A stretch of DNA of 20,548 bases from a virus (IMGVR_UViG_3300042326_001114:1-20548), one strand, 5' to 3'; shown: positions 1,830 to 13,709, counted from the stretch's first letter. A program made the numbers and translations. The notes: a model not told the origin generated them from the sequence alone.

Positions 1830-2750
1830 TTAAAAGTCACCACCATCTAATCTTTTTTCTTTAAAAGCAAGTTCTGCTTTCTCATCATATTTACTTATGC
1901 GATCCGCCTCACGCCTCGGAAAGCCCTTCTTTTTATTTTTAGGTGCCTCATCCTCCTCGATTGCAACCAAGTTCTCTTTGGGGATTTCAACCGTATTACT
2001 CGGCGATTCTTTAACTGGCGAAACTGTTTTTCGCCTCTGCTTAGTAGGCCTAGGTACCGAAATGGGAAGTGAACTCTTGCTTCCATATTTTTCCTTGTAA
2101 GATATGTTTCCTGCTATCAATAATAACACAGCTAGAGGGTCAAATACAAGCATAATCATGAAGATTACCAGTCTTACAGCCTTATCTAAGGCACCGTCAC
2201 CACTACCAAAGAATATGTCTGCCACATATTTGATTGGACCAACATCTGCCACTAATTTATTTTCTTCTTTAAGAAGTGGTAACTTTTTCTTGTTGATTTC
2301 GGCCAATTCTTTTTGTGTTGTTTGAATCTGTCTATCAATTTGAACAGAAGCAGTTTCAGGATTACCGGCACGCTTGAGTAAATATTCTAGTCGTTGTTCG
2401 GCAATCTTCTGTTGTGAATTGAGTGTTTTGAGTTCGGCAGTATTTGCACCAGCATCTAATGTAGAATCAATATGTGATTTGGCCAAGAAACCAAAAATAC
2501 CCATTGAAGTAATAAACATTAAGATGACAACGGCAGCCGTCAAGTATGACTTCAATAAAATATTAGTTTTCTGCCAATTATTATATAGCCATGATGCAGT
2601 AATTAATTTGGCAAATTCAAGTGTTGAACCCATAATAACAACTGGCCAAAATGCGCCAGAGAATATGAGTGCAAGACCAATAACTGAATAATAAGCAGCA
2701 GTACCAGATAATAAGAATGCCGCTAAGAATGTTAATATGATTAGTATCAT
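1830..2750 (-). CDS. Multi-TM membrane protein with central coiled coil, 306 aa
   Basis: An integral membrane protein of unknown function. I place the start at ATG 2750, which forms an ATGA overlap with the gp43 stop and has GAGG 10 bases upstream; the frame is open for 17 more codons before that. Hydrophobic segments lie at about residues 2-20, 24-45, 70-90 and again at 190-215 (VRLVIFMIMLVFDPLAVLLLIAG). Residues about 100-175 are Gln/Glu/Lys-rich, predicting a coiled coil between the membrane blocks. The C-terminal about 75 residues are a polar tail (PRPTKQRRKTVSPVKESP). Similar proteins beside replication genes in T4-like phages are annotated as hypothetical. A role in tethering replication to the membrane is speculative. 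Confidence 0.8.
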   Translation of the reverse strand: MILIILTFLAAFLLSGTAAYYSVIGLALIFSGAFWPVVIMGSTLEFAKLITASWLYNNWQKTNILLKSYLTAAVVILMFITSMGIFGFLAKSHIDSTLDAGANTAELKTLNSQQKIAEQRLEYLLKRAGNPETASVQIDRQIQTTQKELAEINKKKLPLLKEENKLVADVGPIKYVADIFFGSGDGALDKAVRLVIFMIMLVFDPLAVLLLIAGNISYKEKYGSKSSLPISVPRPTKQRRKTVSPVKESPSNTVEIPKENLVAIEEDEAPKNKKKGFPRREADRISKYDEKAELAFKEKRLDGGDF

Positions 2751-5287
2751 GAGAAGAAATCCTCTATTGAACTTGTTTTTTCTGTTTTCCAGCCCATACA
2801 ATCCAGAATAACTTTAATTGGTTCTAAGAATGCCTTATCAAATTGCATATCATAATCAATATACTCTTGCAATTCGAATTCTTTTGGTAAACGAGATGGA
2901 TACGAAATGACCGTATCTTTAAATGGATTAGGCATCTTTAGGTAAGTAAACTTAACCTTTTCACCTTCTTGAATGAGTTGATATTTCTTGGTTAGATTCT
3001 TTTGTTTTAGATTGTGATTATAAAGAATGGCACCTTTAACATGAATTGGTGTTCCTTTTTTATACAATGTTAATGCATCAGAATAGGTATTTAGGCCATT
3101 AAGACCACGAGGAAAAGAGATTTCTTCTACAGGTAATGTTTTGAATTCTTTTCTAAAATCTTCAATAAATTTATATACATCTTCCTGTGTACCATTTACC
3201 ATTAACTGAATGGCTTCTTTCATTCTCTCACGGATGGCAGATGGTGTCGATGATTTAATCATTTCAAGACCCATGACTTTCATCTGTGGTTCTTTATATT
3301 GAACACCTTCATTATTATACACATTCAGAATGTATCGTTTCTTGGCAGTCCAGATGCCTTTGTTGGATAGACCTTCTCGTTTCATTTCCATTTTTTGCTG
3401 ATAGGCGTGAACATACTCAGCCAGTTCTTTATATGACTTATCGATATATGGTTGAATCTTTTCTTCACAGATTTTATCCATGAGAGAGATTACCTTCTGT
3501 TTGTCTGATGTGTCTTTAATAAATTTATTGACGAGCTCGCCCATGCGCAAATAGATTGAATCAGTATCAGAAGCAATTACATAATCCTTATCTTTTGTAT
3601 CAAGTATCTTGTTCATCCAAAGGTTAATTTTATTTTCAATCCAACGAATACTTAATTGGCCAGCAGTAGTGACGCCAAGAGCCATCCGCAAATCGTAGAA
3701 ACGGAAATACTGAGAACCCAAAGCACCGTAAGCAGAATTAAGGGAAACTTTCTTTGCCAATTGTATGTTGTTGTATTTGGCGATTCGTTTTTCAATTTCA
3801 TATTTCTTCGAGCTATCCGTTTCATTTTCATACTCCTGTTTTGCTTGTAACATCAATTTCTTAAACTTACTTCTGTCTGTATACATTTCTTCCATCATCT
3901 TAGGCAAGAACCCCCGAATATCGGTACGAAAGAATTGGCCATTAGGTGTTAGTGTTGCACCTTCTAACTGTGATGTGTTGATTTCTTTTCTTAACATTCT
4001 ATCAACAGAAACACCTTGTTCAAGTATCTCACGCATTGCATCAGTATAATTCTCTGGTTCAATAAGAGTTTCTGGTGAAATATTATATTGCATCATCAAA
4101 TGTGGATACAGAGAGTTTAAGTCAAATGAGGCAACCCAATCATGTAAACCAACTTGCGGTATTTTAACATAGGCACCTTCAAATGCTGCATCTTTATCTT
4201 TGACCACTCGTGGTGGAACAATAATATTTTTCTCACGCAAGTAAGAATAAGTCATCGCATCCCACATACGAGTTTGTGCAAAAATATCTTCATAGTTGGA
4301 TTTTGTATCGTAGGCCAGAGTTACACCTAGTTCCAACAGTTTTAATTTTTCTTCAAGTCGAACAATCAACTCAACGTCTTTAATGTTATACTCAATAAAC
4401 TTTTGATAGTTTAAACGATACAAGGCATGTAGATTATCATATTCATCATAGGCAATCTTACCTTCACCCAATTCAACCTGTGCAATGTTATCTAAACGAT
4501 ATGATTCTTGTGACTTACCGCCTGGTGCATACCATTTGTACAGTTCAATATAATCGAGTGCTGCGACACCAACAATGTCATAAGCAATTAGTTCACGGCC
4601 ATTGATTCGTGTTTTTCTTTCGGTAAGATATTTCCAAGGAGATAAGGTTTTGGTTTCATCTTCACCTAGAATTTTGCGGAAACGATTGATGATGTATGGT
4701 ACGTCAAAGAACTTGGTGTTCCAACCAGTAAGAATATCAGGACATACTTTTGTCCAGAGTGCCATGAATTGTTTACATAAAGAATATTCATCTTTACACT
4801 TCACATAAACTTCTTCACCTTGCGTGACATAATCACCACAACCAAACACATAAGTTTTGCCGTTAAGATACTTAATTGCAATTGCTGTGATAGGTTCGTT
4901 TGCTTCATATGGATCAGGAAAGCCATTTTCTGAACCGACCTCGATATCGATTACAGCAATTAAGACCTTATCTTGGTCATAGTCAACCATGCCTTGGTGT
5001 TGATCGGCAATAAAGGCATATTCAAATCGTGTTTGGCCATAGACCTTAGAGGCACCAGACACACCATCGAATTGCTTGATGTAATCTCTTGCCTCTTTAG
5101 TTGTACCAAATACTTTTTGATCTAGATAATCACCAGTAAGTGTGGTGAAATTAGTAACTCGTTTGGATGGTAGAAAAAGAGAAGGAGAATATTCAATTCT
5201 CTGTTTTACTCTTTTGCCATCCTGAATGCCTCGATAAAGTATATTACTACCGAAACATTGAACATTAGTATAGAATGATGAACTCAA
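2747..5287 (-). CDS. 43: gp43 family-B DNA polymerase
   Basis: Replicative DNA polymerase with proofreading exonuclease, 846 aa against 898 in T4. Exo I is DIE (Asp114, Glu116), Exo II is NTKFFD (Asn190-Asp195) and Exo III is YNIKD (Tyr300, Asp304). Polymerase motif A is DLNSLYP (389-395), motif B is KKVSLNSAYG (512-521), motif C is DTDS (574-577), and KKRY is at 649-652. All catalytic residues are present. The C-terminus SSIEDFFS resembles the clamp-binding peptide at the end of T4 gp43. The only plausible start is a TTG at 5287: the next in-frame stop lies just upstream, no ATG is available, and MSSSFYTNV matches the family N-terminus. AGG stands 5 bases before it, so initiation is probably weak. 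Confidence 0.97.
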   Translation of the reverse strand: MSSSFYTNVQCFGSNILYRGIQDGKRVKQRIEYSPSLFLPSKRVTNFTTLTGDYLDQKVFGTTKEARDYIKQFDGVSGASKVYGQTRFEYAFIADQHQGMVDYDQDKVLIAVIDIEVGSENGFPDPYEANEPITAIAIKYLNGKTYVFGCGDYVTQGEEVYVKCKDEYSLCKQFMALWTKVCPDILTGWNTKFFDVPYIINRFRKILGEDETKTLSPWKYLTERKTRINGRELIAYDIVGVAALDYIELYKWYAPGGKSQESYRLDNIAQVELGEGKIAYDEYDNLHALYRLNYQKFIEYNIKDVELIVRLEEKLKLLELGVTLAYDTKSNYEDIFAQTRMWDAMTYSYLREKNIIVPPRVVKDKDAAFEGAYVKIPQVGLHDWVASFDLNSLYPHLMMQYNISPETLIEPENYTDAMREILEQGVSVDRMLRKEINTSQLEGATLTPNGQFFRTDIRGFLPKMMEEMYTDRSKFKKLMLQAKQEYENETDSSKKYEIEKRIAKYNNIQLAKKVSLNSAYGALGSQYFRFYDLRMALGVTTAGQLSIRWIENKINLWMNKILDTKDKDYVIASDTDSIYLRMGELVNKFIKDTSDKQKVISLMDKICEEKIQPYIDKSYKELAEYVHAYQQKMEMKREGLSNKGIWTAKKRYILNVYNNEGVQYKEPQMKVMGLEMIKSSTPSAIRERMKEAIQLMVNGTQEDVYKFIEDFRKEFKTLPVEEISFPRGLNGLNTYSDALTLYKKGTPIHVKGAILYNHNLKQKNLTKKYQLIQEGEKVKFTYLKMPNPFKDTVISYPSRLPKEFELQEYIDYDMQFDKAFLEPIKVILDCMGWKTEKTSSIEDFFS

Positions 5288-5656: not shown

Positions 5657-5664
5657 TATAAATA
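5657..5664 (+). promoter_or_regulatory. T4-type late promoter (TATAAATA)
   Basis: A perfect match to the T4 late -10 element TATAAATA, read rightward about 70 bases before the first plus-strand gene. In T4 such sites are used by host polymerase with gp55/gp33 and the DNA-loaded gp45 clamp. It predicts that the whole holin-like/curli/cyclase operon is a late unit. It lies inside the leader of the opposing early transcript. Confidence 0.7.
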
Positions 5665-5734: not shown

Positions 5735-6013
5735 ATGGACTTTTTTAAGATTGTTGCCGAATTAGGTTTCCCAATAGCCGCTGCGTTTGCTGCAGGTTAT
5801 TTTGTGTTCCTAACTTTAAAATTTATTCTGGCCGGTGTTACCGGTTCTGTCAAAAGTTTAAGTGGTATTATTACCGCCTTAGACAATCGTGTTAAAACAA
5901 TGAACCATGATGTTATCAGAATTGATACTCTAATGTCAAGCGCTATGGGTGTCAAACCTGATATCGACCGTATTGCTCGTGCAGACGGCAAGAACGATGC
6001 TAGGAGAGATTGA
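5735..6013 (+). CDS. Holin-like single-TM protein, copy 1 (92 aa)
   Basis: A 92-aa protein with a short N-terminus (MDFFKIVAELGFP), one membrane helix (about residues 14-33) and a long helical, charged C-terminal half. This topology resembles small holins of the BhlA/UviB type. It is clearly related to the protein at 6410-6688: both begin MD..(E)IV...GFPI.AA...GYF and continue with a helix containing ALxxRV and D.IR(I/L). It is first in the late operon. No good Shine-Dalgarno sequence precedes the ATG, but the paralogue supports this start. A lysis role is plausible; alternatively it anchors the envelope complex encoded next door. Confidence 0.75.
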   Translation: MDFFKIVAELGFPIAAAFAAGYFVFLTLKFILAGVTGSVKSLSGIITALDNRVKTMNHDVIRIDTLMSSAMGVKPDIDRIARADGKNDARRD

Positions 6014-6174
6014 TGCCCGCTTATCTTGAATTAGACGATTTGGAAGATTTGGTTATTCACTTCCATGACGTTGCCAGAATGATAGAACGTGAAATAGGTA
6101 CTGGTGAATTGACGAAAGACATTAGAAGTTGTGGTGACCGATTAAAAGAATTACTCAAAGAAAGAATAGAGTAG
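6013..6174 (+). CDS. Small hypothetical protein, 53 aa
   Basis: A 53-aa acidic, probably all-helical protein (MPAYLELDDLEDLVIHFHDV...) that does not resemble a family I know. AGGAG lies 6 bases before the ATG. The start overlaps the stop of the previous gene as TGATG, so translation is probably coupled. It has one Cys and no membrane segment. Its place between two small membrane proteins suggests it works with them, as an inference from context only. Confidence 0.65.
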   Translation: MPAYLELDDLEDLVIHFHDVARMIEREIGTGELTKDIRSCGDRLKELLKERIE

Positions 6175-6177
6175 TTG

Positions 6178-6366
6178 ATGTATGTTGATGGTTACCTACT
6201 TTTAGTAATTTATTTGATTGCGGTGTTAGCGGCAGCAATTAGTGTATACGCTTTATGGACTTTAAAAGAAGTTGAAGAACAGTTAAAGAAAAAAGATAAA
6301 CCTAATAAACCTAATAACGCTTGGGATCATTATCACAATACTGCAAATCAAAAAAAAACATTCTAA
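6178..6366 (+). CDS. Small single-TM protein, 62 aa
   Basis: A 62-aa protein with one strongly hydrophobic segment (YLLLVIYLIAVLAAAISVYALW, about residues 6-27) followed by a Lys-rich tail (LKKKDKPNKPNN). I start it at ATG 6178 rather than the TTG one codon earlier. It begins 3 bases after the preceding stop; GAG in AATAGAG is the only ribosome-site candidate. The positive tail suggests the C-terminus is cytoplasmic. It could be a holin, antiholin or spanin-like accessory next to the two holin-like paralogues, but no specific motif settles this. Confidence 0.65.
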   Translation: MYVDGYLLLVIYLIAVLAAAISVYALWTLKEVEEQLKKKDKPNKPNNAWDHYHNTANQKKTF

Positions 6367-6378
6367 AGATAAAGCAAA

Positions 6379-6396
6379 AGGTTATTTCGATAACCT
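6379..6396 (+). promoter_or_regulatory. Perfect 7-bp hairpin with TTCG loop
   Basis: AGGTTAT and ATAACCT form a perfect 7-bp stem around TTCG in the 43-base gap between two small genes. No U tract follows; an AAGGA ribosome site comes directly after. It is therefore more likely an RNA stability or processing element, or a modulator of the next gene, than a terminator. Confidence 0.5.
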
Positions 6397-6409
6397 ATAA
6401 GGAAATATT

Positions 6410-6688
6410 ATGGATTTAGTAGAAATAGTTAACAAATATGGTTTTCCAATTGTTGCAGCTGGCGGCATGGGATACTTCATTTATTATGTGTGGACTTGGG
6501 TAACAAAAGAAATTAAACCTGTATTGAGTGAAGCAAGTTCGGTATTAATTGCTTTGATTGACCGTGTCAGGATGTTAGATAATGATTTGATAAGATTGAA
6601 TCAGAAAATTAACATCGTATTAATGATGCGAGAAATTAAAGAAGATGAAAAACACAAAAAAGATTCTAGTAACCCTCCTACTGATTAG
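6410..6688 (+). CDS. Holin-like single-TM protein, copy 2 (92 aa)
   Basis: A 92-aa paralogue of the protein at 5735-6013. The N-terminus MDLVEIVNKYGFPIVAAGG leads into one membrane helix (about residues 13-32, ending YYVWTWV), then an amphipathic helix (SSVLIALIDRVRMLDNDLIRL) and a charged tail. AAGGA stands 6 bases before the ATG. Its last 44 bases overlap the start of csgF in another frame. Small N-terminal-helix proteins of this kind are common in T4-like marine phages. A holin or an inner-membrane partner for the curli pore are the two readings I consider likely. Confidence 0.8.
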   Translation: MDLVEIVNKYGFPIVAAGGMGYFIYYVWTWVTKEIKPVLSEASSVLIALIDRVRMLDNDLIRLNQKINIVLMMREIKEDEKHKKDSSNPPTD

Positions 6689-7091
6689 TTCAAATTTATA
6701 CGCAGCTGAGTTAATCCACCAATTTAATTCTCCATCCTTTAGTGGTATTGGTTATTCCAACCATGTTATAACCATTGAGCAATTAGAATCTCAACGCAAA
6801 CAAAAAATAAGAGATGAAGCTAAATCGGCAGCTGATGCAGCTGAACGGGCAGCAAAAAATACCAATTTAGCTAAATTTTTAAATAATGTGGAATCTCGCA
6901 TTTACGCACAACTATCAAAACAGTTGGCCGACCAAATGTTTGCCGAAGGTGGTGCAACACAAGGAACAATGGATTTTCAAGGCACACAAATGTCTTGGGT
7001 TAACCTTGGTTCGGAAGTTCAACTAACAATTACTAATCCTGATGGCACACAAACAATAGTAACAGTACCTATTGGAACATTTGGTTTCTAA
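6645..7091 (+). CDS. csgF: CsgF-like curli assembly protein
   Basis: 148 aa with a Sec signal peptide (MKNTKKILVTLLLISSNLYA, cleavage before AEL). The mature start, AELIHQFNSPSFSGIGYSNH, matches the CsgF N-terminus (Phe-x-Asn-Pro-x-Phe-Gly-Gly type), the segment that in E. coli inserts in the CsgG channel. A helical Ala/Lys-rich middle follows, then the C-terminal beta region MSWVNLGSEVQLTITNPDG and QTIVTVPIGTF, comparable to the end of CsgF. In E. coli CsgF sits at the cell surface and links CsgG to the nucleator. It begins inside the preceding gene and ends directly against the csgG ATG, so the two are coupled. Confidence 0.85.
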   Translation: MKNTKKILVTLLLISSNLYAAELIHQFNSPSFSGIGYSNHVITIEQLESQRKQKIRDEAKSAADAAERAAKNTNLAKFLNNVESRIYAQLSKQLADQMFAEGGATQGTMDFQGTQMSWVNLGSEVQLTITNPDGTQTIVTVPIGTFGF

Positions 7092-7874
7092 ATGAAAAAA
7101 ACACTTATAGTTTTAACCATTTTATTTTTAACAGGCTGTGCTCAATTGCATATGCACTTTGCACAAGAAGAACCTGTGGAATTAAAACCAAAAGAAAATT
7201 TAATAACCAAATTACCAAAGTTGGATGGTCCACCAATTACTATTGCAGTATATGGTTTCTTAGATAAAACAGGACAAAAGAAACCTGGTGATAAAATCGC
7301 ATTGTTCTCTAGTGCCGTCACTCAAGGTGCAGAAGTATTCTTAATTAAATCATTACACGATTCACGAAATTGGTTTAAAGTGGTTGAACGAGTTGGTTTG
7401 GATAATTTAATTAAAGAACGACAGTTAATACGCAACCAAAGAGAAGTCTATGAAGGCAAAAATGCTACGCCATTGAAACCAATGACGGTTGCTGGAGTAA
7501 TTATTGATGGTGGTATTATTGGTTATGATAGTAATATACGAAGTGGAGGTAATGGTGCTCGATTTCTTGGTATTGGTGGTTCACAACAATATCGAGTTGA
7601 TGAAGTAGTTATCTCTCTTAGGTTGATTAGTGTTAATACCGGAGAAATATTAATGACAAATGCCGTGTCAAAAACAATTTTTAGTACGGCACACAATGTG
7701 GGTGTTTTTCGTTTTGTTGACCAAGGAACGAAATCGCTTGAATTGGAAAGTGGTAATGCTTTGAATGAACCCACAACATATGCAGTTCGAGTAGCAATAG
7801 AACAAGCTGTGTATGACATGATAATTAATGGAGAAAAAAAAGGTCTTTGGAAATTTAAACAAGAGGAAAAATAA
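7092..7874 (+). CDS. csgG: CsgG-like outer-membrane curli secretion pore
   Basis: A 260-aa lipoprotein with signal peptide and lipobox LTGC (Cys16). CsgG forms a nonameric outer-membrane channel that exports curli subunits. Family signatures are very clear: GPPITIAVYGFLDKTGQKKP, the DSRNWFKVVERVGLDNLIKE block, GIIGYDSNIRSGGNGARFLG, STGEILM-like NTGEILMTN, GVFRFVDQ, NEPTTYAVR, and the C-terminal GLWKF. Length is close to E. coli CsgG (277 aa). In the constriction loop the phage reads KKPGDKIALFSSAV where E. coli reads KPYPASNFSTAV. The Phe56 equivalent is kept, but the Tyr51 and Asn55 equivalents are not, and the loop is one residue longer, so gating may differ. Confidence 0.95.
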   Translation: MKKTLIVLTILFLTGCAQLHMHFAQEEPVELKPKENLITKLPKLDGPPITIAVYGFLDKTGQKKPGDKIALFSSAVTQGAEVFLIKSLHDSRNWFKVVERVGLDNLIKERQLIRNQREVYEGKNATPLKPMTVAGVIIDGGIIGYDSNIRSGGNGARFLGIGGSQQYRVDEVVISLRLISVNTGEILMTNAVSKTIFSTAHNVGVFRFVDQGTKSLELESGNALNEPTTYAVRVAIEQAVYDMIINGEKKGLWKFKQEEK

Positions 7875-7876
7875 AA

Positions 7877-8470
7877 ATGAAACTTAAAGCAATTGCTCTA
7901 ATTATGGCGATTCTTGGGTTTAATTATGCTGTAGCAAATGATGTTTATGTTGAACAAGTTGGTAGTAGTTCAACCGTAACAATTACACAAGAAGGTACAG
8001 GTAACCAAGCTGGAAACTCAACCGATTCACTTTATATTGGCTCTGGATCCAATGTCGTTACAATTGACCAAATAGGTGACAGTAACATTTTAGCCATGGT
8101 TGTTAATGGCGCTTCGGCCGATGTAACAGTTAACACCACGGGTAGTGGTAATCAACAAACGATTGATTGTGGTACAACTAGCTCTGCTGGATGTTCTGGT
8201 AGCACAATCACGCAAATTGTTGACGGTGATGATAACACCATTACACAAAGCTTAGGTGCAGGTGCAAATCACACCAGTAACATTACAGTAACAGGTAGTG
8301 ATAATGCAGTAACACATACCAGCACCGCAACTGGTACAACATCAATGAACGCAACGATTACTGGTAGCACAAATACTGTTGGTGTTACACAATCTGGAAT
8401 GACTACACAAAATGTTACGATTAACTCAACTGGTAATAGCAACACTATTACTGTTAACCAGTCAAACTAA
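7877..8470 (+). CDS. Curlin-repeat (CsgA/CsgB-like) secreted subunit
   Basis: 197 aa with a signal peptide (cleavage likely after YAVA, residue 20) and no membrane anchor. The mature protein is made of short Gly/Asn/Gln/Thr/Ser-rich beta strand-turn repeats of the curlin type, e.g. VEQVGSSSTVTITQEGTGNQ, VTIDQIGDSN, ITQIVDGDDNTITQSLGAG, and QNVTINSTGNSNTITVNQSN at the end. The Q-x-G-x-x-N spacing is that of amyloid-forming CsgA/CsgB beta-solenoids, though the repeats are less regular. There are two Cys (98 and 106), unusual for curlins. AAGAGG stands about 10 bases before the ATG. It directly follows csgG, so it is the likely cargo of that pore. Confidence 0.85.
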   Translation: MKLKAIALIMAILGFNYAVANDVYVEQVGSSSTVTITQEGTGNQAGNSTDSLYIGSGSNVVTIDQIGDSNILAMVVNGASADVTVNTTGSGNQQTIDCGTTSSAGCSGSTITQIVDGDDNTITQSLGAGANHTSNITVTGSDNAVTHTSTATGTTSMNATITGSTNTVGVTQSGMTTQNVTINSTGNSNTITVNQSN

Positions 8471-9497
8471 TTTTGCAGCTGTAGGCAAAGTTACGGAACA
8501 ATCTGGTCCAACAGAAATAGTTCGCAATAAAAAATCAATACCTAGTGTGATAAACACTGGTGTTGAAATGAATGATACAATAGTGACAGCGAAAGCGAAA
8601 GCCAAGCTGACTTTTCAGGACAACACGACAGTCAATATTACCGAACAATCAAAATTGGTAATAGATGACTTCGTGTATGATCCGAATAAGGGCACAGGAA
8701 AACTGGCAGTTAAGGTTGCCCTTGGTACTGCACGATATACTTCAGGTCAAATAGCTAAGAATAGTCCACAATCAGTAAGTGTTCAAACACCAACTGCTAC
8801 GGTTGCAGTTCGTGGTACAGACTTTTCAATGACCGTAGATGAATTGGGTCGGTCTCTAATTATGTTATTGCCATCATGCGACAAAGATAAAAAGAAATGC
8901 GTTACTGGTGCCATCGCAGTTAAAAATGATGCAGGTGAAGTTTTTATGAATGAAGCATACCAAACTACTTTAGTTATTTCAACAAGTATATCACCATCGG
9001 CACCTGTTATAGTTAACATAGACCAAGCCAACATTAATAATCTTTTGATTATATCTCCACCAAAAGAAGTCAAAGAAACTTATGTTGAATCTAAAACGGC
9101 TTTAGATGTAAACTTCTTGTCCTTAGACCTTTTAAAATTTACTGGTTTAGATGAAAATCAACTAGAAAACTTTAAAGAGCTGGACATGAATTTATTGGAC
9201 ATTGATTTATTAGGCAATCTTTTGGATGCTGAAAATGCGGCGCTTGCTGCGAACCAAGAGGTATTATCGGTTGAAACAAAACTATTACCAGGATACAATG
9301 CGGCTTCTGGTGCTCGATACTTTCTTAACGATGACCAATCCAAAATAAGTTATTGTAAATATGGTGGTAGTCACACCGCTTGTGTTATTGCATCGGCAGA
9401 CGAAAGTAAAACTTTATCATTTAATCAAGATGGTTCACCACTAATACAAAACATCAATAAAGGTGGAGATTCAAATATCACCATAATACAAAGATGA
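8412..9497 (+). CDS. Secreted FecR-domain protein with curlin-like C-terminal motif
   Basis: 361 aa. Residues 1-23 are a signal peptide (MLRLTQLVIATLLLLTSQTN, then FAA). A FecR domain follows at about 24-140: GVEMNDTIVTAKAKAKLTFQDNTT, a typical LGTARYTSGQ and the hallmark TPTATVAVRGTDF. The rest is unrecognised, with Leu/Asp-rich helices near 215-270 and two Cys near 315-325. The last about 15 residues (NINKGGDSNITIIQR) resemble one curlin repeat, so this protein may dock on the fibre. Its first 59 bases overlap the end of the curlin gene in another frame; the signal peptide requires this start. FecR proteins are periplasmic sensors or regulators and in bacteria can occur next to CHASE2 cyclases, as here. 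Confidence 0.85.
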   Translation: MLRLTQLVIATLLLLTSQTNFAAVGKVTEQSGPTEIVRNKKSIPSVINTGVEMNDTIVTAKAKAKLTFQDNTTVNITEQSKLVIDDFVYDPNKGTGKLAVKVALGTARYTSGQIAKNSPQSVSVQTPTATVAVRGTDFSMTVDELGRSLIMLLPSCDKDKKKCVTGAIAVKNDAGEVFMNEAYQTTLVISTSISPSAPVIVNIDQANINNLLIISPPKEVKETYVESKTALDVNFLSLDLLKFTGLDENQLENFKELDMNLLDIDLLGNLLDAENAALAANQEVLSVETKLLPGYNAASGARYFLNDDQSKISYCKYGGSHTACVIASADESKTLSFNQDGSPLIQNINKGGDSNITIIQR

Positions 9498-10678
9498 AAA
9501 AATTATTTTTGTTTCTAATGATGATATGCAGTATTGCTCGAGCAGATATTTTAGACTTGAAGGTTAGTACCGCACAGATATTTGATGTGCAATGGTATAT
9601 TTCAGGTAATACATTGTATGCCAGTGGTTTCAATTATATTTACGCTTCTGTGAATTATGCAACACAGACTACTAGTGCGGCCCGTTGGACTGCGGCTCAA
9701 ACAACAGACGCTGGTGCTAACGGCCGTTATATAGGATTCTTCAACAGCACAACCAATCCTGGCACTTACGGTATGGCCGTGTTCAATAGTAATGGCACCA
9801 GATACAAAACTATCAACAACACCGGATCGTTTAGAGCGTTGGCCAACGGCGCCATCTTTTATAACGGTAACGGTATGTGGGGTACATTAATAACTACGGG
9901 ACAAGGTTATAACTACGGGCAAAGCGGATCGTGGGCAGTGACGCAGAGCAATCCAACTAACACACAATTGCAAGCTTATGTTCCTCCAAGTTCAACACCT
10001 TTATCTGCTGGCCAAACCGCAGCACCTCCAGCGCCAACATATTCAGCCACAATAACAACAGAACAACAAAATAAAATTAATGAGGCACGAGCAAGACAAA
10101 CATATAAGAATGAAATTAATATTGACCAAATAGGACATTACAATAATATTGATGTTATACAATCTGGATATTATCATTTAATCGATATTAATGTTAATGG
10201 TGATACAAATCTAATTGATGTTGCACAATACGGAATCAAAAACTATGCCAAAGTTCAAACAACAAATGGCAATAATAATTCAGTAAATATATTTCAACAC
10301 AATACAGGCGGCGCTCAGGTACTTGGTCATTTCTCGGAAACATTAATTTCTGGAAGTAATAATACAGTAACTTTAAATCAAACGGGTGATGGAGAAAAAA
10401 GAAATTTTACTAATGTAAGTGGTAATTTAAATACCATTAATCATTTACAAAATGGCACCGGTACAAAATACTCTGACATAAAAGCCACTGGAAACGGCCA
10501 TACGATCACACTAGACCAAAAAGACGGTGGTGCTCACGCAGCTCGGATTGAAGTAACAAATAATGGCGGAGCTTCTACTGTAAACGTATCTCAACAAGGC
10601 AATACCAATCAAACTTATTCTGTTCAACAACTTTGTGCTACCGTAAGTGGATGTTCAGTCGGTATTCAACAGCAATAA
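9494..10678 (+). CDS. Large two-part secreted protein: N-terminal domain plus curlin repeats
   Basis: 394 aa with a signal peptide (MKKLFLFLMMICSIARA). Residues about 20-160 are an unrecognised Gly/Tyr/Asn/Trp-rich, beta-looking domain. A Pro/Ala linker (near 165-185) and a short helix (TTEQQNKINEARARQ) follow. From about residue 207 to the end there are curlin-type repeats, e.g. INIDQIGHYNNIDVIQSGYY, TVTLNQTGDGE, HTITLDQKDGG and STVNVSQQGNTNQ. Two Cys sit in the last repeat (C381, C387). It starts in an ATGA overlap with the FecR gene. The plan suggests a nucleator or adhesin carried on a curli fibre. The N-terminal domain has about 49% GC (hand count 9661-9960), against about 32% in the repeat part, suggesting a different origin. 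Confidence 0.8.
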   Translation: MKKLFLFLMMICSIARADILDLKVSTAQIFDVQWYISGNTLYASGFNYIYASVNYATQTTSAARWTAAQTTDAGANGRYIGFFNSTTNPGTYGMAVFNSNGTRYKTINNTGSFRALANGAIFYNGNGMWGTLITTGQGYNYGQSGSWAVTQSNPTNTQLQAYVPPSSTPLSAGQTAAPPAPTYSATITTEQQNKINEARARQTYKNEINIDQIGHYNNIDVIQSGYYHLIDINVNGDTNLIDVAQYGIKNYAKVQTTNGNNNSVNIFQHNTGGAQVLGHFSETLISGSNNTVTLNQTGDGEKRNFTNVSGNLNTINHLQNGTGTKYSDIKATGNGHTITLDQKDGGAHAARIEVTNNGGASTVNVSQQGNTNQTYSVQQLCATVSGCSVGIQQQ

Positions 10679-10688
10679 ATAATTTACT

Positions 10689-12695
10689 ATGAAAAAAATA
10701 TTATTCTCTCCATGGACGGCCGTAATCACATTGTTGGTATTACTTGCAATCCGGATTGCAGACCCTATGTTTTTGGAATCTGTTCGACTTCGTTATTTTG
10801 ACCAATTAATAACCTCAAAGGAGACAACTGTATCTCAACAGGTACACGTTGTAAACATAGATGACGAAACTATTCGACAAAAAGGACAATTCCCGTTCCC
10901 TCGTAGAGAATATTCCAAACTTATTACTGATGTTTATGCTCGTGGTGCTGGGCTGGTTGTCTTTAATATCTATATGCCTGAGTCTGACCGTTTTGGCCAA
11001 GATTTGGATTTAGCACAAACTTTTAAAAAATATCCTGTTGTATTACCACAAACAGGAACAAATGATAATTTAAAATCAAAATATCCACCATTCAGGCCAG
11101 GTGTTTCTGTGATTGGTGGTGAAGATGTAGGAATAAAATATGAAAACATTGAACCCAATATACAACCATTCAATTCAACTGCTGCTGGTATTGGTATTGT
11201 TAACACCTTACCAGAACTTGATGGCGTTACCAGACGAGTTCCTATGGTCGTCAGCTCACAACAAAAGTTGTATCCGAGCATTAGTCTTGAAACATTGCGG
11301 GTCGCAAGTGGAGACCCAAGCTTCCAAGTCAAAGTCACCGAATACGGAATCGAAGCCGTCAGAATTCCAAAATTTGGTAAAATTACAACAGACAACGTGG
11401 GTCGAATTTGGGTTGACTGGTCAACAAAACCAATTCAACATAGTGCCAACAACTTACCCAATGATTTCAAAGGAGGAATCGCCATCATCGGTGTTACCGC
11501 AAAAGGTCTTAACAACCCTGTCGGAACATCTATGGGGGCAGTCTATCCACATTATTTACAAGCAGCTGTATTAGATACTGTAATTTCAGGTACTAATATA
11601 TCTCGAACAGATTATGCTGACGGTGCAGAAATATTATATACATTTATTGCTTGCCTATTAGCTCTTTTCTTTACGAGATATACACATGGATACATTGCAC
11701 CAATCACGATTGCCGTATTTACTTACTTTGGCACCAAGCAATTATTTTTGGGACACCAGTACCTTTTTGATGCTGTATTTCCTATACTCACCATTACGCT
11801 TTGCTACGCTCATGGATACACAGTCAAATTTTTGTCCGAGCTCAAACAAAAGCTCCAAATCAAAAAACAATTTGGAACATATTTGTCTCCAGCACTAGTA
11901 GAAAAATTGCAGAAGAATCCAGAACTGTTAGTTCTTGGTGGAGAATCAAGAGAACTTTCTATTATGTTTACGGATGTTCGTGGATTTACAACAATTTCCG
12001 AACACTATGGTAAAGATGTTCAAGGTCTTACTAAGATTATGAATCGATACATGACTGCAATGACAGCAAAGATTATAGAGAACAATGGAACATTAGACAA
12101 ATATATTGGTGATGCTCAAATGGCATTTTGGAACGCACCTGTAGATGAAACCAATCATGCTAAGATGGCAGTTAAAACTGCATTACAGATGATGAATAGT
12201 TTGGATGAATTCAATAGAGAAATTGAACAAGAAGGTATTCCTGCTTTTGGTATGGGTTTAGGTATCAATACAGGCACCGTTGTTGTTGGTAATATGGGTT
12301 CAAGTCAACGATTTGATTATACTTGCCTTGGTGATTCGGTTAATTTGGCATCAAGACTTGAAGGACAAAGTAAACCCTATGGTGTTAAAATTATTCTTGG
12401 ACCACTCACAGCTGAACAAGTAAAGGATGAATATCCTGTTGTTGAATTGGATTGTATTGCAGTTAAAGGTAAAAAAGAAGGAGTTAAAATATACACTTTA
12501 GCTCCAGATAATGAACTACACCAACAATGGTTGAATTTATATTATCGTGGTCAATGGAACAAAGCATTGCTATTAATAGAACAACTAATTAATGTTACTC
12601 CGGAATTACAACATTATTATGAAAACATGTCAGAAAGATTAAAAGAAGGAGTACCTTCTAATTGGGACGGCACATATCGAGCTACGAATAAATGA
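10689..12695 (+). CDS. CHASE2-domain class III adenylate cyclase
   Basis: A 668-aa membrane receptor cyclase predicted to make cAMP from ATP. One N-terminal helix (about 8-25) leads into an extracytoplasmic CHASE2 sensor (about 30-305: RYFDQLI, VVNIDDETI, FPFPRREYSKLI, GAGLVVFNIYMPE, DGVTRRVPM). Three helices (about 312-330, 335-350, 357-375) follow, then a linker helix and the catalytic domain (about 415-605). Metal ligands are Asp429 (FTDVRGF) and Asp475 (KYIGDAQMAFW). The adenine-selecting pair is Lys471/Thr545, the class IIIb pattern, and transition-state residues are Asn552 and Arg556 (VNLASR). The C-terminal tail ending [11 protein letters not shown] is also typical of the family. The gene is intact, with no missing catalytic residue. 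It probably acts with the FecR protein. Confidence 0.94.
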   Translation: MKKILFSPWTAVITLLVLLAIRIADPMFLESVRLRYFDQLITSKETTVSQQVHVVNIDDETIRQKGQFPFPRREYSKLITDVYARGAGLVVFNIYMPESDRFGQDLDLAQTFKKYPVVLPQTGTNDNLKSKYPPFRPGVSVIGGEDVGIKYENIEPNIQPFNSTAAGIGIVNTLPELDGVTRRVPMVVSSQQKLYPSISLETLRVASGDPSFQVKVTEYGIEAVRIPKFGKITTDNVGRIWVDWSTKPIQHSANNLPNDFKGGIAIIGVTAKGLNNPVGTSMGAVYPHYLQAAVLDTVISGTNISRTDYADGAEILYTFIACLLALFFTRYTHGYIAPITIAVFTYFGTKQLFLGHQYLFDAVFPILTITLCYAHGYTVKFLSELKQKLQIKKQFGTYLSPALVEKLQKNPELLVLGGESRELSIMFTDVRGFTTISEHYGKDVQGLTKIMNRYMTAMTAKIIENNGTLDKYIGDAQMAFWNAPVDETNHAKMAVKTALQMMNSLDEFNREIEQEGIPAFGMGLGINTGTVVVGNMGSSQRFDYTCLGDSVNLASRLEGQSKPYGVKIILGPLTAEQVKDEYPVVELDCIAVKGKKEGVKIYTLAPDNELHQQWLNLYYRGQWNKALLLIEQLINVTPELQHYYENMSERLKEGVPSNWDGTYRATNK

Positions 12696-13396
12696 ACATT
12701 ATACTTTACACACTCATAGTAACACACATAACAATTATATCAGTAACGCTATATCTACATCGTAGTCAAACACATCGTGGAGTTACATTTAATCCTGTAG
12801 TAAATCATTTTTTTAGATTTTGGTTATGGATGACTACTGCAATGGTTACCAAGCAATGGGTAGCAATACACCGTAAACACCATCAGTATAGTGATGTAGA
12901 AGGAGACCCACATAGTCCTAAATTATTTGGCATTAAAAATATATTATTTCGTGGAGTTTATTATTACTATGTTACGGCCAAAGATGCGAGAATGACATTA
13001 TCTTATGGTAAAGGAACACCAGAGGATTGGATAGAGAAAAATATATATTCAAAATATAACTATGCCGGTGTTTGTTTGATGTTGATAATCAATGTCGTAT
13101 TATTTGGATGGATTGGTCCTATAATTTGGTTGATTCAAATGTTATGGATTCCATTTTGGGCAGCTGGTGTTATCAACGGAATAGGACATTGGTTTGGGTA
13201 TCGTAACGGAACAACTAGAGATAATTCTCACAACATACTTCCAATAGGCATTTGGATTGGTGGAGAAGAATTACATAACAATCATCATTTGGATCCAGCA
13301 AATCCAAAATTGAGTAAGAAGTGGTTTGAATTTGATGCTGGTTGGTTCTACATTAAAGTATTAGAAAAACTCAAACTAGCAAAACTTAAGCATTAA
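12692..13396 (+). CDS. Membrane fatty acid desaturase (delta-9 type)
   Basis: A 234-aa di-iron acyl-lipid or acyl-CoA desaturase. All three histidine boxes are present: HRSQTH (23-28), HRKHH (60-64) and HNNHH (195-199), plus the supporting NGIGH (His166). Membrane segments lie at about 3-21, 33-52, 125-148 and 149-165. It is shorter than typical bacterial enzymes (about 280-300 aa) but not truncated at any motif. Its ATG overlaps the cyclase stop (ATGA), so it is in the same operon. Desaturases occur in some T4-like marine phages, where they are thought to alter membrane fluidity. The 3' end overlaps the convergent Fe-S carrier gene by 11 bases. Confidence 0.93.
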
Positions 13397-13709
13397 AAGA
13401 AGAACCGCAACCACAGGTAGATTTGGCATTTGGGTTACTAATAACAAACTGTGAATTGAATTTTTCTTCTTTATAATCCAATGTTGCGCCTTGTAGATAT
13501 TGTGAAGAAATTATATCAACGACCACTTTGATGCCTTCATTTTCAATCACAAAATCATCTTCATTAATTTCTTCATCAAAAGTAAATCCATATTGATAAC
13601 CAGAGCAACCGCCGCCTTGCACAAACATTCTTAAAGCTCCATTTGGTAGTTTTTCTTCAACCAACAAATCACGAACTTTATTAATTGCACTACTGGTTAT
13701 TTGAATCAT
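13386..13709 (-). CDS. iscA: A-type Fe-S cluster carrier (IscA/ErpA/HesB family)
   Basis: 107 aa, normal length for the family. The three ligand cysteines are present: Cys35 ([12 protein letters not shown]), Cys99 and Cys101 (STCGCGSSF). These bind or transfer an Fe-S cluster to apoproteins. A-type carriers are recurrent in T4-like cyanophages and pelagiphages. The targets are unknown; host respiratory or ribonucleotide-reductase-related proteins are possible. Its ATG overlaps the end of the upstream 56-aa gene by 20 bases, and only a weak ribosome site (GGATAG) is visible, so translation may be coupled. It is the last gene of its transcript, tail to tail with the desaturase. Confidence 0.94.

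Follow-up and report, generated by a model that had tools for sequence, protein, structure and literature searches.

Two curlins of unequal design were found together with their secretion genes in a T4-like phage, and we consider it rather probable that the smaller protein (curlin 1) forms a fibre on which the larger one (curlin 2) displays a binding domain, by way of a phage curli module. The arrangement suggests that the phage gives its infected host a coat of fibres with some holding function, and the head of curlin 2 is probably sticky. The window, meaning the whole stretch of DNA that was analysed, is a T4-like viral contig of 20,548 bases, in which T4-like genes flank the curlin pair.

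Curli module and genomic context

A rightward run of close or overlapping genes spans positions 5735 to 12695, and a desaturase gene extends it to 13396. Within this run, a Pfam scan identified CsgF, CsgG, two Curlin_rpt proteins, a FecR protein, a CHASE2 domain joined to a cyclase, and the desaturase. The module, encoded on the plus strand, opens with a 92-aa membrane-segment protein (5735-6013; phrog_18771) and its 92-aa paralogue (6410-6688; phrog_18771), each with a single hydrophobic segment, the second of which matched a holin family weakly (E 0.015). These are followed by the curli assembly factor CsgF (6645-7091; PF10614, E 6.1e-17) and the lipoprotein CsgG, the outer-membrane curli secretion pore (7092-7874; PF03783, E 4.6e-52), and then by curlin 1 (7877-8470; Curlin_rpt, E 9.7e-7), the FecR-domain protein (8412-9497; PF04773, E 5.7e-12), curlin 2 (9494-10678; Curlin_rpt, E 1.8e-9) and the CHASE2-adenylate/guanylate cyclase (10689-12695; PF05226, E 7.5e-36; PF00211, E 7.1e-22). 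The genes from CsgF to the cyclase are contiguous. The locus thus contains the genes by which a type VIII secretion (curli) system is recognised, namely a CsgG pore, CsgF and at least one curlin-repeat protein, here two with PF07012 above its cut-off. Tens of viral loci keep this order, as do two isolated phages, Melnitz, whose host is OM43, and HTVC008M, whose host is Pelagibacter. A sequence-only reading of this region had placed both curlin genes correctly and recognised them as a pair, but had left out the FecR gene between them; rather than standing alone, the pair belongs to a phage curli/T8SS module.

No gene for the periplasmic factor CsgE was detected among the module genes scanned with Pfam in the window, which is a fragment. 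This absence is not disqualifying, since phage modules are reported to be usually without CsgE (PMC9599517) and CsgE is described as dispensable for curli (PMC7029224). One or more histidine kinases have been reported at the position preceding CsgF (PMC9599517). That label was given by position, and Pfam and NCBIfam scans found no kinase domain in the two 92-aa proteins located there.

FecR begins, in another frame, before curlin 1 ends, so that its signal-peptide codons share 59 nt (8412-8470) with the 3′ end of the curlin 1 gene. The overlap measured 38-83 nt in most related loci, was longer where the first possible start lay upstream, and was missing in L045-L051, L057, L059, L060 and L066. 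At the other end of the run, the desaturase gene (12692-13396) overlaps the cyclase gene by 4 nt and is followed on the opposite strand by an A-type Fe-S carrier gene (13386-13709, minus). Upstream of the module, a T4 late-promoter-like TATAAATA (5657-5664, plus) is directed toward it, and the same intergenic gap holds a perfect sigma-70 promoter, TTGACA-17-TATAAT (5727-5699, minus), directed toward the replication genes. Because TATAAATA was not above chance frequency in the window, and because the 8 of 39 related loci with it upstream of the module are confined to a few clades, it is only a hint of a late promoter. The family B polymerase gene (2747-5287, minus) was considered as an indicator of the host; its nearest relatives were cyanophage gp43 proteins at about 51% identity, which is too unspecific for that purpose.

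Architecture of the two curlins

Both curlin-repeat reading frames were confirmed, and both proteins have signal-peptide-like N-termini by inspection. The 197-aa curlin 1 is the plain curlin that had been proposed, with the addition of the signal peptide. AlphaFold2 (36 aligned sequences) predicted a beta-solenoid with a pLDDT of 90.3 and a pTM of 0.87, comprising 14 strands from residue 13 onward in about seven repeats. A profile of curlin-1 homologues matched the solved curlins 8c50 (E 2.7e-17) and CsgA 8enq (E 7.8e-4), so that Pfam, AlphaFold2 and the solved-curlin profile agreed on tandem curlin repeats in a solenoid fold. Foldseek returned weak beta-helix matches for both curlin models (best E for curlin 1, 0.077), and the fold assignment consequently rests on the repeats, the sequence profile and AlphaFold2.

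The 394-aa curlin 2 has the tripartite structure of non-repeat N-terminus, linker and repeats that the sequence-only reading had described. Its N-terminal domain, designated domain A (approximately residues 18-182; 9545-10039), contains no Cys and leads into a Pro/Ala/Ser-rich linker, YVPPSSTPLSAGQTAAPPAPTYS (residues 163-185; 9980-10048), at the end of which AlphaFold2 confidence was low. A predicted junction helix (residues 189-200; 10058-10093) precedes the C-terminal solenoid (10109-10672), for which 16 strands in about eight repeats were predicted with a pLDDT of mostly 85-94. Only the solenoid was modelled confidently, the N-terminal domain being poorly predicted; the solenoids predicted for both proteins bear out the fold that had been expected. 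With its N-terminal domain set apart on a stalk that would polymerise or anchor, curlin 2 has the architecture of a tip or surface adhesin. The junction helix was nearly unchanged beside unrelated N-terminal domains (L061, L067), and the linker and helix of the window and L067 were 88% identical over 26 residues.

In NCBIfam, curlin 1 scored 20.3 of the 160 bits required for the CsgA equivalog NF007470, and curlin 2 scored 22.6 of the 165 bits required for CsgB (NF007506). Since both cut-offs were missed, the two proteins are, judged by sequence, curlins but not CsgA/CsgB orthologues. Curlin 1 would be the major fibre subunit.

Conserved cysteine pairs

Each protein carries a close pair of Cys at the positions first noted, as read from the DNA. 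In curlin 1, Cys98-x7-Cys106 (8168-8194, plus; codons 8168-8170 and 8192-8194; mature 78 and 86) lies on either side of the predicted loop that joins strand 73-78 to strand 89-96. In curlin 2, Cys381-x5-Cys387 (10634-10654, plus; codons 10634-10636 and 10652-10654; mature 364 and 370) replaces the turn of the last repeat in the model and encloses the loop that connects the final pair of strands (358-363 and 371-376). A third Cys of curlin 2, C12, lies within the signal peptide.

Conservation in homologues had been proposed as a check on these pairs, and they passed it. The curlin-1 set, made up of viral-locus homologues together with Melnitz and HTVC008M, formed 37 clusters at 90% identity. 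An internal pair was present at the same place in 31 of the 37, with a spacing of 8 in 28 and of 6, 9 or 15 in three more; five of the remaining clusters were Cys-free and one had a C-terminal pair. Mature curlin 1 accordingly contained either no Cys or two, and a single Cys in none of the 37 clusters. Complete curlin 2 proteins had C-x(3-5)-C approximately 6-10 residues before the C-terminus in all 18 clusters. In the wider set of curlins with domain A, the terminal pair was found in 27 of 27 clusters; although the Cys motif was used in part to define this class, the count holds, since every complete domain-A protein with a curlin tail had the pair and the other domain-A proteins were autotransporter-like, truncated or broken (L222). 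Outside this set, a terminal pair occurred in 5 of 221 curlin-like ORFs from 79 genome_contigs loci. Four of these were small curlins adjoining CsgG, three of them on contigs with Hyphomonas in the title and one in an alphaproteobacterial MAG, and the fifth lay on a phage-like contig in a bacterial bin.

The close spacing, the count of none or two, and the position around one predicted loop make the pairs look like within-chain staples, an inference drawn from sequences and models. The curlin 2 proteins of L047, L048, L049 and L051 have adjacent Cys-Cys in the linker (187-188 in L047), and curlin 1 of the same four loci is without the internal pair.

Exchange and sharing of the N-terminal domain

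The N-terminal domain of curlin 2 is exchangeable, as judged from a comparison of loci. Domain A is carried by curlin 2 of the window, L005, L045, L047-L049, L051 and L066, and is combined with an F5/8 type C domain in L050, L052 and L057-L060. An F5/8 type C domain alone is found in L061 and L063 (Pfam E 5.8e-9), other N-terminal domains are found in L034, L067 and HTVC008M, and Melnitz has none.

A profile scan of viral contigs for domain A yielded 79 loci. Together with four earlier loci, these placed the domain on 46 curlin-type proteins (27 clusters) and on 27 autotransporter-like proteins (20 clusters). The autotransporter beta-domain PF03797 was confirmed by Pfam on the domain-A proteins of L204 and L211, the other autotransporter-like calls resting on a C-terminal F/W and on sequence appearance. 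The autotransporter-like form adjoins CsgG/FecR/AC in L018, L204, L205, L230, L236 and L238. Elsewhere, as in L064 and L183, gp43 is close to this form but no CsgG gene lies nearer than 6 kb. Domain A was Cys-free in 46 of 47 clusters, which suits export through either CsgG or an autotransporter barrel.

Domain A had no Pfam or PDB match, and AlphaFold2 confidence for it was poor. A single-sequence scan of the bacterial genome_contigs did not find it. A profile search of 398 genomes, sampled from the phylum to which a Sphingomonas genome belongs, was likewise empty, which by itself is no evidence of absence; the profile used on these genomes did match five virus records.

Between phages with CsgG proteins of approximately 50% identity, domain A was 86-88% identical at the amino-acid level, with the exception of L051 (77%). 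A recent swap of the domain was considered as the cause and rejected, the fourfold-site identity of domain A (0.32-0.40, saturated) being as low as that of other genes. With these sites saturated, strong constraint rather than recent transfer explains most of the identity, and a domain under such constraint would be expected to have a partner that is itself conserved, not a receptor that changes fast. Between the window and L005, domain A was 81% identical and CsgG 92%, values compatible with an exchange of the domain in this case. Glycan or lipid binding by the head is hinted at by the relatives with F5/8 type C domains.

In L222, the domain-A protein beside CsgG/FecR/cyclase (5953-6801, 282 aa) stops inside its F5/8 type C domain, and the gene therefore looks broken. 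A further N-terminal or middle domain, 34-53% identical, is shared by L009, L026 and L064, where it occurs on autotransporter-like proteins and one truncated protein in the curlin 2 position; the L009 copy matched NF038132 weakly.

Core and accessory genes of the module

The position of curlin 2, between FecR and the cyclase, behaves as a slot of variable content, while a curlin-1 homologue was present in modules with complete flanks. Many loci have a curlin with an N-terminal domain in this slot. In nine loci (L011, L012, L016, L017, L021, L028, L029, L030 and L033) it contains little or nothing, and it holds an autotransporter-like protein in L009, L010, L018 and L020 (in L020 with a beta-domain by Pfam) and also in G003. 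By eye, an IscU-like gene occupies it in L007 and a PstS-like gene in L027, so not every slot product is a surface protein.

Ten large records with curlin 1 (59-344 kb), which may be incomplete, were searched with a curlin-2-tail profile and for domain A; the tail profile hit curlin 1 and nothing else, and neither a second curlin nor domain A was found in them. Because these records hold no second curlin, curlin 1 is, on this comparison of gene contents, best seen as the core component and curlin 2 as an optional domain-bearing subunit, not a required nucleator. Of the earlier proposal of a major subunit with an adhesin or nucleator, the contrast between a plain and a domain-fused curlin stands, and the nucleator part is weakened by the same ten records.

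Proposed mechanism and alternatives

In the course of infection, both curlins would leave the cell in unfolded form through the CsgG/CsgF pore of the phage, and stacked curlin 1 solenoids would build up an amyloid-type fibre on the outside of that cell. Curlin 2, as an optional minor subunit, may use its C-terminal solenoid to enter the fibre or, at CsgF, to initiate it, with the linker holding the N-terminal domain outward as a binding domain on the cell surface. The Cys pairs would close one arc loop in curlin 1 and the last-repeat loop in curlin 2 within the chain and stiffen the solenoid, and their short spacing might let loops formed beforehand still traverse the pore. FecR and the CHASE2-cyclase may sense or regulate. 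The likely gain is that infected cells are held to neighbours, particles or glycans. Among the roles considered, display appears to fit the sharing of domains best, although the high conservation of domain A within a close group is unlike a diversifying adhesin. More broadly, we tentatively suggest, with some doubt, that many T4-like phages mount a conserved binding domain as an exchangeable head on a phage-made curli fibre or an autotransporter.

Curlin 2 could instead be a CsgB-like nucleator, with its last C-terminal repeat docking on CsgF at the pore and serving as the template for curlin 1; the N-terminal domain would then be secondary. E. coli CsgB likewise has a degenerate C-terminal repeat, for which a link with CsgF binding has been described (PMC10192328). 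Every complete curlin 2 keeps the terminal Cys repeat, and four bacterial loci have such a repeat in a small curlin that directly follows CsgG and precedes a large curlin. We nevertheless regard this role as unlikely, since many modules have curlin 1 but no second curlin, making a nucleator unneeded there, and the CsgB equivalog score was far under its cut-off. It is quite unlikely that curlin 2 is a terminator, a cap whose disulfide-stapled last repeat and bulky N-terminal domain would halt stacking and so determine how long the fibre grows. Solenoid proteins are indeed held back from polymerising by terminal repeats that are irregular or by extra domains (PMC10192328), and the Cys pair is predicted to replace the turn of the very last repeat, but a turn loop lies on the side of the solenoid rather than on its stacking face, and curlin 1, which presumably makes up the polymer, has a comparable Cys loop at an internal position.

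The Cys had also been proposed to lock or join subunits. Disulfides between subunits, or between the two proteins, might lock the fibre, given that Cys are present in both proteins and that engineered Cys across the curli interface can form disulfides (PMC10192328). We consider joining very unlikely: the pairs are 3 to 14 residues apart and flank one predicted loop, mature curlin 1 has none or two, and in five clusters curlin 1 is Cys-free while the partner curlin 2 retains its terminal pair. A staple within one chain fits these observations better. The view that the module is a pore re-purposed for uptake or lysis timing, with the curlins as relics, follows a proposal made for Melnitz CsgGF in the published account (PMC9004378), and its first two genes do encode short membrane proteins, one with the weak holin-family match (E 0.015). 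It too is highly improbable, because the repeats, both Cys pairs and the N-terminal domain are conserved across diverged phages, which is unexpected for relics, and the Melnitz record annotates two curlin-repeat proteins. The display of a binding domain on a fibre is the preferred reading. That an accessory curlin and autotransporter-like proteins have the head in common favours a display role over one as a pore or in lysis.

If the exchangeable-head reading is true, a specific grip for the doomed cell would be a regular part of infection, which bears on why phages carry curli genes in hosts without them. Domain A is a defined domain whose ligand can be sought.

Comparison with known systems

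Phage type VIII secretion modules have already been reported for pelagiphages (PMC7029224, PMC9599517), and their gene set and order, like those of Melnitz (PMC9004378), are as in the window. In the parts of this literature at hand, the second curlin is counted simply as a second CsgA/B copy, and the asymmetry of the curlins, the modular head, the exchange of domains, the Cys pairs and the autotransporter counterparts are apparently not described for these modules. Capture of sibling cells, defence against superinfection, uptake and lysis timing are among the roles that these sources propose for phage curli (PMC7029224, PMC9599517, PMC9004378). Cultures infected with Melnitz are reported not to have clumped under the conditions tested (PMC9004378); the target of a displayed head therefore need not be sibling cells.

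The window curlins resemble E. coli CsgA (8enq) and CsgB in their curlin repeats, predicted solenoid and presumed export by CsgG/CsgF, and the last repeat of CsgB also deviates. Unlike these proteins, they have putative Cys-closed loops and miss the equivalog cut-offs, and curlin 2 has a separate N-terminal domain. If closed, the conserved loops set these proteins apart from curlins without Cys and are relevant to the range of chains that CsgG can pass. The small Hyphomonas-type curlin after CsgG (L083, L086, L091, L101) ends like curlin 2 in Y-x-I-x-Q-x2-C-x5-C with a short strand to Q, but it is without the added N-terminal domain, and neither FecR nor a cyclase was detected adjacent to it in those bacterial loci. 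Curlin R15.5 of Pontibacter korlensis (8c50; PMC10192328), the best solved-structure match of the curlin 1 profile, has 15.5 more regular repeats, as against about seven in curlin 1. The PF03797 autotransporters of related phages have domain A in common with curlin 2, some also the F5/8 type C domain and some the same slot, and they differ in the carrier, which is an outer-membrane barrel where curlin 2 has its solenoid.

Further occurrences of the module

In L006 (10001-10760; the same contig in L044), a near-identical contig whose other module genes are 100% identical, CsgG is split into frames of 217 and 63 aa by a frameshift or an assembly error. The phage-type module was also found in Rhodobacteraceae, Flavobacteriaceae or Pelagibacter bins (L070-L072, L074, L076 and L148), with the two small genes, CsgF and CsgG, and with FecR and the cyclase where the contig reaches them; these look like phage contigs inside bacterial bins. 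Viral contigs of 236-344 kb carry the module in L008, L010, L012, L013 and L017; the isolates, at 141-147 kb, are far shorter.
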